Assembly (NCBI RefSeq): GCF_000024465.1
Contig: NC_014010.1
Span: 1,178,001-1,242,000, forward strand
DNA: 64,000 bases
From: Candidatus Puniceispirillum marinum IMCC1322
Lineage (GTDB): Bacteria > Pseudomonadota > Alphaproteobacteria > Puniceispirillales > Puniceispirillaceae
Direction of reading: 5' to 3'
Shown piece by piece: positions 52,110-54,607 of the stretch. Position 1 is the first letter of the stretch. Every line of letters starts with the position of its first letter. The notes below the pieces were generated by a model. It saw only the letters and a program-made list of their open reading frames with translations, did no database searches and was not told where the DNA came from. The position numbers and the translations under genes were made by a program.

Positions 52110-52194
52110 GCTATACTCCTATATTAGATACAATGATCTATCTATATATTAACGCCAAGAACAAGCCAACAAGTACCCTCTACTGCAAGGATTG

Positions 52195-53091
52195 ATGCAT
52201 ATGATTACCCGATTTGCACCAAGCCCGACTGGCGCCCTACATCTTGGTCATATATATGCGGCTAAGGTTGCCCATGATATAGCCAAAGCGCATGGCGGCC
52301 ATTTTCATCTACGGATCGACGATCTTGACACTACACGATGCCGCCCTGACTTTGTCGATGCCATTTATGATGATCTTCGCTGGGCTGGGTTGGGCTGGCG
52401 TGGCACAGTGTCATTTCAGTCTGACAGGCACACGCATTATGCCAAAGCCATATCCCAATTACGCGACATGAATCTGTTATATCCCTGTTATCTGACGCGT
52501 CGTGAACTTGCCAGCATGACGCAGGCACCACATGGCACAGCAGACATCACCAACCCTATCATGCCAATCAACACCGACAGACTGATCACGGACAGCGAAC
52601 AGAAACGCCGAGCTACTGATGGCCAGCAGGCCGCCTGGCGATTACGCATGGATGCCGCGATAAAATACGCAAATGCGCATACAGGCATCCATTCGCCGCT
52701 AATCTGGCGGGAATATGCGCTTTCTGCCGATGCTGGCCCAAAGCAAGCGACGCCCGAAATATTTGGTGATGTCATAATCGCCCGCAAGGACTTGGGCAGT
52801 TCATATCACTTGGCCGTTGTCATCGATGATATGCTTGATAATGTGAGCTTGGTTACGCGCGGCGTTGACCTACAATCGTCAACGCATCTGCACCGCCTTC
52901 TGCAAGCCCTGCTGGACATACCAACACCCAACTATCTGCATCACCCGCTTGTCACAGATTCCAGCGATAAACGACTTGCCAAACGAGATAAGGCACAGGC
53001 CGTTGCAGCCTTGCGAAACAGTGGTATGAGTGCCGAATCAATGATGTCTATTTTACCAGCTCTGCCGGATTACGAATCTGTCGGCATTTAA
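52195..53091 (+). CDS. gluQ: Glutamyl-Q tRNA(Asp) synthetase
   Basis: Charges glutamate onto queuosine of tRNA-Asp (about 298 residues). It resembles the catalytic half of glutamyl-tRNA synthetase: RFAPSPTGALHLGHIYAAK (the HIGH motif), LRIDDLDTTRCRPDF, and a KMSKS equivalent in DKRLAKRDKAQA. The anticodon-binding domain is missing, as normal for GluQ. The four zinc cysteines of E. coli GluQ are not all obvious. ATG 52195 or 52201 both fit an AAGGA. Ends before a region with no gene but a small RNA candidate. Confidence 0.92.
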   Translation: MHMITRFAPSPTGALHLGHIYAAKVAHDIAKAHGGHFHLRIDDLDTTRCRPDFVDAIYDDLRWAGLGWRGTVSFQSDRHTHYAKAISQLRDMNLLYPCYLTRRELASMTQAPHGTADITNPIMPINTDRLITDSEQKRRATDGQQAAWRLRMDAAIKYANAHTGIHSPLIWREYALSADAGPKQATPEIFGDVIIARKDLGSSYHLAVVIDDMLDNVSLVTRGVDLQSSTHLHRLLQALLDIPTPNYLHHPLVTDSSDKRLAKRDKAQAVAALRNSGMSAESMMSILPALPDYESVGI

Positions 53092-53168: not shown

Positions 53169-53197
53169 TTGATAATTAAAATAAGAGAAAATAGATG
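53169..53197 (+). promoter_or_regulatory. Promoter-like sequence for the small RNA candidate
   Basis: TTGATA (53169-53174), a 17-base spacer and TAGATG (53192-53197). The -35 is one off consensus, the -10 three off. It would start transcription near 53204, just ahead of the structured region. Consensus match only; A/T-rich surroundings raise the false-positive risk. Confidence 0.35.
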
Positions 53198-53203
53198 AAA
53201 TTC

Positions 53204-53315
53204 CATATGGAGGGGTTGACTAGTACGTTTAACTCCACCATATCTGCGGTGCACAACGATTGTTTGTGCATTTCCTCCCTAAACTTGGTCGTGAGCTTGC
53301 TCACGACTTTTTTTT
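53204..53315 (+). ncRNA. Candidate structured small RNA with a CCUCCC motif
   Basis: About 112 bases between gluQ and a convergent MFS gene, with no good protein. Seen directly: GGAGG (53209-53213) complementary to CCTCC (53274-53278); GGGGTT (53212-53217) with AACTCC (53231-53236); a perfect seven-base stem TGCACAA (53250-53256)/TTGTGCA (53264-53270) with a seven-base loop; then a strong terminator hairpin. CCUCCC (53274-53279) would be free or toggle with GGAGG, and could pair with Shine-Dalgarno sequences of target mRNAs, as in AbcR and CcsR-type sRNAs (analogy only). It could also be the 3' end of the gluQ transcript. The rest of the gap (53092-53203, 53316-53419) shows nothing else. Confidence 0.55.
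53288..53315 (+). terminator. Strong intrinsic terminator of the small RNA candidate
   Basis: Perfect inverted repeat of nine bases, GTCGTGAGC (53288-53296) and GCTCACGAC (53299-53307), followed by eight T (53308-53315). Oriented only for plus-strand transcripts. Confidence 0.9.
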
Positions 53316-53419
53316 GTCCAAAATCTATAGGTACAGCCTCACTGTTTTGCCTAATCCATTTATATTTCAACAGGGGGCCGTCAGATCATCAAGAATAATC
53401 GTGATAGTTAAATTTGGTG

Positions 53420-54607
53420 CTACGCCTGTGTGTTTTGATATCTATGGCTAACCAGCCATACAACTGAACACATAAGCAAGAAAACTGGCAAAGATGCGGC
53501 CAGAACCATCACTTCCCAGCCCAATTGACTATGCACCACACCAGCGATAAGCGAGGCTGAAGCAACAAGAATTGTCATTGTGAGGTCAGCAACACCCTGG
53601 ACACGCCCACGCTCTTCCGGATTGGCAACCTGTGCCACCAAAGAACTGCCACCGATATATAAGAAATTCCAGCCTATACCCAGTAAAAATAAGGCCCCAA
53701 AATAATGCCAGAAATCATCTCCCATCAGAGCCAGTATGATCACAGCAACATAGGCCAAAACACCAGATCCCAGAATTCGGCTGACACCATAACGGGCAAT
53801 GAGGTTGCCGGTAAAAAATGAGGGCGCAAACATCGCTACAACATGCCATTGAATAATCGACGCATTAGCCGACGTGCCAAGCTGGCTTACATTGACCACC
53901 TGTAATGGCGTTGCTGTCATCAGATAGCTCATCAGGGCATAACCAAGTGCCGCACAGAACATGCCAATCAGAAATATCGGCATCCGCAAAAAGATACTAA
54001 TTGGGCGCCCTGCATATAACCGTTGTTCAGGCTTGGGAATCTTAACACCAAAAATGAAAAGAAGGGACACAAGCTGAACAAGCGAGGCGGTAAAGAAACA
54101 ACCTGCATATAGTGCGTCAGGCACCAAATCGACTGTATTGCGGGCAATTTCAGGCCCTAAAAAAGCCGCAACCAACCCCCCAGTCAGCACCCATGATATG
54201 GCTCGTGGTTTATCTTCAGGCGCGGCACTATCCGCAGCGGCATAACGATAGAACCCCGCACAAGCCAATGAAAATCCAAGCCCCATCGATGCCACGCAGA
54301 AGAATATATAGTGATGCAAAACAATAGCCACGGCTTGCGATAAGGTCGATAGAACCGCCACACAAACGCCCAACATAAATAGCGGGCGTCGGCCATATCG
54401 TGACATCAGCAAAGAAACCGGCAATGTTGACAACATCGACATTACAAACATCAAAGATAATGGCAAAGTTGACAGCCATGCAACAGGCGCCAATATGCTA
54501 CCGACCAATGCTGTATTGATCATATTCACATTCATGGTTGTCATTGAGAGTGCCTGCGCACAAGTCAGTCTGAGTACATTCTTGTGATTATGCGTCAGAT
54601 TTACCAT
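53420..54607 (-). CDS. MFS transporter
   Basis: A 395-residue, about twelve-helix major facilitator protein, separate in sequence from the one at 20.3 kb. The loop 2-3 motif is LLMSRYGRRPLFMLGV, and helix 4-5 shows GLGFSLACAGFYRYAAADSAAPEDKPRAISWVL. The C-terminal half includes GIGWNFLYIGGSSLVAQVANPEERGRVQGVADL, a DHA1-like feature. Substrate unknown. It is 74 bases downstream of the Fur-family gene, with which it may be co-expressed, but no clear operator was seen. Confidence 0.87.
   Translation of the reverse strand: MVNLTHNHKNVLRLTCAQALSMTTMNVNMINTALVGSILAPVAWLSTLPLSLMFVMSMLSTLPVSLLMSRYGRRPLFMLGVCVAVLSTLSQAVAIVLHHYIFFCVASMGLGFSLACAGFYRYAAADSAAPEDKPRAISWVLTGGLVAAFLGPEIARNTVDLVPDALYAGCFFTASLVQLVSLLFIFGVKIPKPEQRLYAGRPISIFLRMPIFLIGMFCAALGYALMSYLMTATPLQVVNVSQLGTSANASIIQWHVVAMFAPSFFTGNLIARYGVSRILGSGVLAYVAVIILALMGDDFWHYFGALFLLGIGWNFLYIGGSSLVAQVANPEERGRVQGVADLTMTILVASASLIAGVVHSQLGWEVMVLAASLPVFLLMCSVVWLVSHRYQNTQA

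Follow-up and report, generated by a model that had tools for sequence, protein, structure and literature searches.

The stretch between gluQ and a convergent MFS gene in the SAR116 bacterium Candidatus Puniceispirillum marinum IMCC1322 holds a compact run of pairing elements, which raises the question of what kind of RNA, if any, is made there and how its synthesis is controlled. A first-pass annotation of the 64,000-nt piece of DNA analyzed here (the window) had proposed a stand-alone small RNA with an anti-Shine-Dalgarno motif, two competing folds, and a layout matching no class that it recognized. The genome comprises 2,753,527 bases in one contig. In window coordinates, gluQ (GluQRS by NCBIfam NF004315) occupies 52192-53091 on the + strand and the MFS gene 53420-54607 on the - strand. 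Every sequence element named in that annotation is present at the position it gave; these elements and the features that we assign are listed here.

53169-53174: TTGATA, the -35 element proposed in the first-pass annotation
53192-53197: TAGATG, the -10 element proposed in the first-pass annotation
53209-53215: GGAGGGG
53212-53217 and 53231-53236: the GGGGTT/AACTCC pair
53215-53220, + strand: -35 element GTTGAC (TTGAC at 53216-53220), from the ortholog alignment, the anchored profile, and further loci
53238-53243, + strand: -10 element CCATAT, separated from GTTGAC by a 17-nt spacer, from the ortholog profile
53239-53259, strand not applicable: PhaR/AniA-type palindrome CATATCTGCGGTGCACAACGA over the -10 element and the predicted start, from a matrix match; putative function
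53249-53315, + strand: predicted alphaR8 sRNA of ~67 nt, its 5' end placed (+/- 3 nt) from the -10 element
53250-53270, + strand: seven-pair hairpin directly 5' of the 10-mer (53250-53256 with 53264-53270), from covariation
53271-53280, + strand: family 10-mer UUUCCUCCCU, unpaired, the predicted mRNA/anti-Shine-Dalgarno seed
53274-53279: CCTCCC
53287-53315, + strand: Rho-independent terminator, nine pairs (53287-53295/53300-53308) and eight T (53308-53315)

Comparison assigns the locus to the alphaR8 family

A relaxed-threshold Rfam search of 341 nt matched RF00519 (suhB/MmgR, "Makes More Granules Regulator") to 53255-53322 over the whole model, with 38.8 bits and E=1e-6; this score lies just below the gathering cut-off of 41, which is a reporting threshold, and at gathering thresholds a tRNA is the only report in the whole window. 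The parts follow in the same order as in the model, whose first stem aligns to gaps here. Three alphaR8 traits are found at the locus: an exact copy of the internal single-stranded 10-mer UUUCCUCCCU, unpaired in the predicted fold; a covarying helix upstream of it; and a 3' Rho-independent terminator. Linkage to an N-formylglutamate amidohydrolase (FGase) gene, a common alphaR8 feature that is neither universal nor defining, is absent. Judged by its sequence, the locus is a genuine independent small-RNA gene and a member of an already known family, RF00519 supplying the class that the first-pass annotation had missed; the idea of a stand-alone sRNA exposing an anti-Shine-Dalgarno motif is borne out. 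Our survey of the openly accessible literature returned no report of alphaR8 in SAR116, and we claim no priority for the family in this lineage.

Like SisA-D of Caulobacter crescentus, as described in PMC12559287, the RNA carries a single-stranded UUUCCUCCCU 3' of a weak hairpin and ahead of a terminator, and an Hfq gene is present here too (G000:C1:234422-234610, G000 being the window genome). sisA and most single alphaR8 copies adjoin an FGase gene in that source, whereas gluQ is the neighbor here, and in place of the SisA-D set there is one clear copy with one weak second copy. The RF00519 core is common to this RNA and MmgR of Sinorhizobium meliloti (PMC7143759 and PMC12542648), and both have a PhaR/AniA-type operator at the promoter, with TTGTGCACCGCAG shared (PMC12542648). 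We predict two hairpins in ~67 nt here, whereas MmgR has three stem-loops in 77 nt.

CCUCCC had earlier been likened to the motifs of AbcR (alphar15) and CcsR-type sRNAs, and the likeness extends to the way of working, through a CU-rich anti-Shine-Dalgarno motif; partial homology of alphar15 to the SuhB model, noted in PMC7143759, also favors such a kinship. The likeness does not extend to family membership. Only suhB, SorY (22.3 bits, cut-off 111), and IMES-4 (22.0 bits, cut-off 48) scored in the Rfam search at E up to 5, with the AbcR family not among them. AbcR has two CU-rich motifs in three stem-loops, whereas a single motif and two predicted hairpins are found here together with the exact alphaR8 10-mer, and the gene neighborhood differs. 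We therefore consider an AbcR or CcsR-type sRNA most improbable.

The two hairpins covary

Structural conservation was measured in an alignment (A1) of 42 of the 43 gluQ-linked loci, with repeat fetches of one site dropped from the rows, L028 left out after failing the core filter, and the gluQ match confirmed in all 42. The stretch 53195-53315 folds more stably than expected (z -4.27), and the 67-nt RNA at 53249-53315 alone reaches -21.5 kcal/mol (z -4.62); terminator-like sites as such are no commoner here than chance predicts (1, with 1.4 expected from shuffles). The hairpin at 53250-53270 and the terminator, whose pairs were taken for the covariation count as 53288-53296/53299-53307, are paired in 90.6% of 668 cells compared with 79.0% in shuffles. 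Together they have 12 pairs changed on both sides (8.8 in shuffles), 85 such cells (23.8), and a covariation score of 0.440 (0.221) that 0 of 500 shuffles reach; slid versions score 0.06-0.12. Taken singly, the hairpin 5' of the 10-mer is paired in 85.0% of cells with 6 of 7 pairs changed on both sides, and the terminator in 94.9% with 6 of 9. In predicted folds the 10-mer is unpaired with a mean probability above 0.8 in 41 of the 42 orthologs, the lowest value being 0.61.

A conserved promoter motif precedes the predicted start

With the profile anchored on TTGAC, which is present in 42/42 aligned orthologs, all five letters carry 2.00 bits, and C-A-T-A-T at +23 to +27 of TTGAC recurs in 36, 40, 37, 34, and 35 of the 42 (1.0-1.7 bits). 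Column information is 0.11-0.22 bits (means of ten) from 90 to 31 nt upstream of TTGAC, and a somewhat conserved stretch lies 29-25 nt upstream (0.59-0.99 bits). Once later loci are added, TTGAC is found in 45 of 46 distinct gluQ-linked loci: three of the four newcomers (L080, L097, L098, and L106, all outside the pair and operator counts) have it and L080 has TTGATT, and the alphaR8 copies lacking a gluQ neighbor that were checked alongside have no TTGAC. The alphaproteobacterial promoter consensus is CTTGAC-N17-CTATAT, to which GTTGAC-N17-CCATAT in the window is close. From these comparisons we take 53215-53243 to be conserved promoter DNA that belongs to the sRNA gene itself; its position puts the predicted RNA start near 53249 and the length at ~67 nt. 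In 17 of the 42 orthologs (for example L006 and L030, but not in the window) GTCA stands at exactly -10 from TTGAC; the resulting GTCA-N7-TGAC inverted repeat over the -35 element is a possible further operator.

The same bases had been read as RNA, in a longer transcript starting from TTGATA-N17-TAGATG whose GGAGGGG would either pair with CCUCCC or sit in a GGGGTT/AACTCC stem, thus giving two competing states. The window sequence does allow both pairings, and the longer form has a good predicted fold, although even this fold leaves CCUCCC mostly open. The columns of the proposed promoter carry 0.07-0.19 bits at TTGATA and 0.08-0.47 bits at TAGATG, and neither hexamer occurs near its place in the other orthologs (0/41). 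The GGGGTT/AACTCC stem is paired in 39.4% of cells, compared with 41.0% in shuffles; for GGAGG/CCUCC the figure is 33.3%, and among the 42 orthologs this pairing has no double-sided changes and no covariation. GGAGGGG lies just upstream of the -35 element, its last base being the first -35 base, and GGGGTT/AACTCC spans the -35 element and spacer. The two-state switch is unsupported because its bases lie in or just upstream of the promoter and neither pairing is conserved, and we regard it as having very little chance of being correct. A check of conservation and covariation suggested in the first-pass annotation thus comes out in favor of the terminator and the helix preceding the 10-mer, but against both 5' pairings.

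Distribution and gene neighborhood

With an E-value limit of 0.001, RF00519 has matches in 52 of the 101 order genomes, 26 of them above the cut-off; in the class it is found in 159 of 289 genomes; the 49 order genomes with no such match include all those of the group f4. In 60 first-fetched loci, a set that includes the window's own locus and repeat fetches of one site, gluQ stands beside the RNA in 59 and the MFS gene in 54, and gluQ adjoins the RNA in 25 of the 26 order loci above the cut-off. Within 1.5 kb of the RNA, gluQ was found at 0 of 30 class loci, which are the best-scoring ones and include some close relatives; the linkage to gluQ therefore looks specific to the SAR116 side. A search with a promoter-plus-core pattern found 46 named stretches, several from "SAR116 cluster bacterium" and "Candidatus Puniceispirillum sp.", and the pattern also occurs in Azospirillum, Methylobacterium, and two clostridial MAGs.

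These neighborhoods bear on the origin of the RNA, which might alternatively derive from the 3' end of the gluQ transcript, by cleavage or read-through, with the terminator serving gluQ. The two are on the same strand, only 123 nt separate the gluQ stop codon from the -35 element, no other terminator-like site was found in between, and the linkage to gluQ is conserved. Against this, a dedicated conserved promoter lies directly upstream of the RNA, and the 30 best class loci have no gluQ within 1.5 kb. We consider it improbable that gluQ is the main source; transcription running on from gluQ as far as this terminator may coexist with that from the sRNA gene's own promoter.

The alphaR8 family usually adjoins an FGase gene (PMC12559287). 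Here the three FGase genes of the genome are more than 170 kb from the sRNA, and with imperfect queries (one was translated with 11 stops, another with 3) FGase was found beside the RNA in 0 of the 60 first-fetched loci and in at least 10 of the 30 class loci. The genome also has a second, weaker alphaR8-like copy at G000:C1:2151350-2151416 (-) (L083/L091; 27.5 bits, E 0.0015), between genes that by eye appear SDR- and cupin-like, in which the 10-mer is altered to UUUUCUCCCU; similar second copies are seen in relatives (L067-L070, L073, and L079).

A predicted PhaR/AniA-type operator at the promoter

In gel shifts, PhaR of S. meliloti binds a PhaR/AniA site in the mmgR promoter, and it is reported to repress mmgR (PMC12542648). 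We built a matrix from 18 S. meliloti "Efficient" PhaR sites published in that work, leaving out two of the four exoH sites and acyP, whose site is that of rpoE8 read from the opposite strand. Its best match among 63,980 window positions is 53239-53259 (12.8; next best 12.4), a rank that holds without mmgR's own site in the matrix, and of 300 column-permuted matrices none had its best match there and one reached the local score. The palindrome WNWD2NYGCRNYGCRNH2WNW is found at the promoter by hand comparison, its core TGCGGTGCA fitting and two arm letters departing. One half of it doubles as the 5' hairpin arm of the RNA, which accounts for part of the palindrome's conservation, though not for that of the TGCGG half.

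A PhaR-type site occupies the same promoter position in only 17 of the 42 orthologs. At class loci a site lies within 150 nt upstream in 26 of 30, compared with 17 of 569 control stretches, and 6 of the 8 loci formed by the weak second copy and its counterparts in relatives have no such site. By analogy with mmgR, the alphaR8 sRNA is probably under PhaR-type control. What is new here is that the window's best PhaR/AniA-type operator, as predicted from sequence, lies on an sRNA promoter in a genome without a PhaC_N match.

In 16 of the 17 orthologs with the first palindrome (L002-L007, L009, L010, L012, L015, L016, L019, L050, L051, L059, and L065), a second, higher-scoring one lies 148-154 bp downstream of it, past the terminator, in the gap between two convergent genes, a place with no known gene start. 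The window is the exception, with a decayed counterpart at 53412-53432 (score -5.1). The second palindrome occurs in 0 of 25 orthologs without the first (searched 120-300 nt from TTGAC, threshold 12), and weaker matrix matches of 12-17 are scattered elsewhere in some loci. Co-occurrence of the two is strong when relatedness is ignored (Fisher p 1e-10); a gluQ tree has six changes of the first site, and in the three independent pairs on supported branches the second follows in 2 of 3, so coupled evolution is not significant (sign test p 0.5). A role for the second operator as the promoter of another RNA was dropped, as no consistent -35/-10 was seen by eye on either strand. Several loci also have a further palindrome, TNGAAA-N7-TTTCNA (by eye), between the two operators.

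DNA looping may be one reading of the two-operator arrangement. We tentatively suggest, as a possibility that is rather doubtful, that PhaR-type repression of an alphaR8 sRNA goes far back in alphaproteobacteria and survives here without a PHB synthase, and that it has expanded in relatives to two operators, an arrangement pointing to repression of a tiny RNA gene by DNA looping and to a carbon cue distinct from PHB granules.

The seed and its candidate targets

In Caulobacter, the 10-mer region of alphaR8 RNAs was shown to base-pair, with Hfq, both with the sponge CrfA and with an mRNA (PMC12559287). In the window genome, UUUCCUCCCU has a single exact copy and its full complement is found nowhere, so that the genome holds no perfect 10-mer target and no CrfA-type sponge with an exact 10-mer complement; a control pattern with the 10-mer letters reversed also occurs just once, and the rarity is thus no clear depletion. 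Outside the sRNA, GGGAGGAAA occurs at four sites, two of them directly before start codons: at G000:C1:2305836-2305844 (-) (L125), before a gene for an NMT1/SsuA-like ABC substrate-binding protein whose SsuA model match is below cut-off, and at 348664-348672 (-) (L121), before that of a peroxidase-related enzyme. The two candidate duplexes have energies of -19.5 and -17.9 kcal/mol, compared with a best of -19.2 and a median of -12.0 for window genes (n=63), which were roughly called and scanned over a somewhat longer stretch. A target prediction with CCUCCC, as the first-pass annotation had suggested, therefore yields two sites at start codons but energies that hardly differ from the best of the window genes, and because these do not stand out, the SsuA-like and peroxidase-related targets are leads only.

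In S. meliloti, MmgR keeps PHB accumulation in check (PMC7143759). No PhaC_N gene was found in the window genome with one profile, which found one in 1 of 14 control genomes (Caulobacter); we therefore dropped PHB regulation as in MmgR, and the RNA is unlikely to act on PHB here in the way known from rhizobia.

The IMES-4 model (RF02037) scored on the strand opposite the sRNA, at 22.0 bits and an E-value of 0.2, which is not above chance. We considered and dropped the idea that IMES-4 is alphaR8 read backwards, as the true IMES-4 of genome G265 has a terminator on its own strand. The loop GGGAGGAAAUGCAC of that RNA (L061:1501-1580 (-)) is an exact 14-nt complement of the window sRNA, and the RNA resembles a CrfA-type sponge or a ribosome-binding-site mimic. 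As a CrfA-like sponge of alphaR8 it was rejected: a search of G265 with RF00519 at E up to 1 found nothing, and by eye the remaining eight TTTCCTCCC sites of that genome do not look like alphaR8. RF02037 occurs in 1 of 289 class genomes, and its 20-nt exact core had no match in viral contigs.

Discussion

We hold it very likely that this locus is an alphaR8 sRNA gene of a SAR116 bacterium, with its own promoter, an RNA of ~67 nt, repression through Hfq and an anti-Shine-Dalgarno seed, and PhaR/AniA-type control; the gene, promoter motif, and hairpins come from comparison and the exposed 10-mer from folding, and we infer the Hfq action and the PhaR step. The first-pass annotation made a sound observation with the wrong model for the 5' half, and the RNA is an ordinary, well-conserved alphaR8 sRNA.

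A housekeeping-type promoter, GTTGAC-N17-CCATAT, would give rise to the RNA of ~67 nt, consisting of one hairpin, the single-stranded UUUCCUCCCU, and a terminator. By analogy with characterized family members, the sRNA probably acts with Hfq as an anti-Shine-Dalgarno RNA that blocks translation of selected genes, and the 10-mer would pair with GGGAGGA-type ribosome-binding sites of mRNAs for transport and metabolism to repress them. As for mmgR, transcription would be repressed by a regulator of the PhaR/AniA type bound at the palindrome that covers the -10 element and start, and because of this putative repression the sRNA would respond to carbon status.

These findings bring the marine SAR116 lineage into the study of alphaR8 sRNAs, which has so far been centered on Sinorhizobium and Caulobacter, and make a concrete predicted promoter, length, and seed available for the SAR116 RNA. 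They also illustrate how a promoter can be mistaken for a regulatory RNA stem if only a single sequence is read. If a PhaR-type operator is indeed used here without a PHB synthase, the ligand of PhaR and its purpose outside PHB metabolism would become testable.
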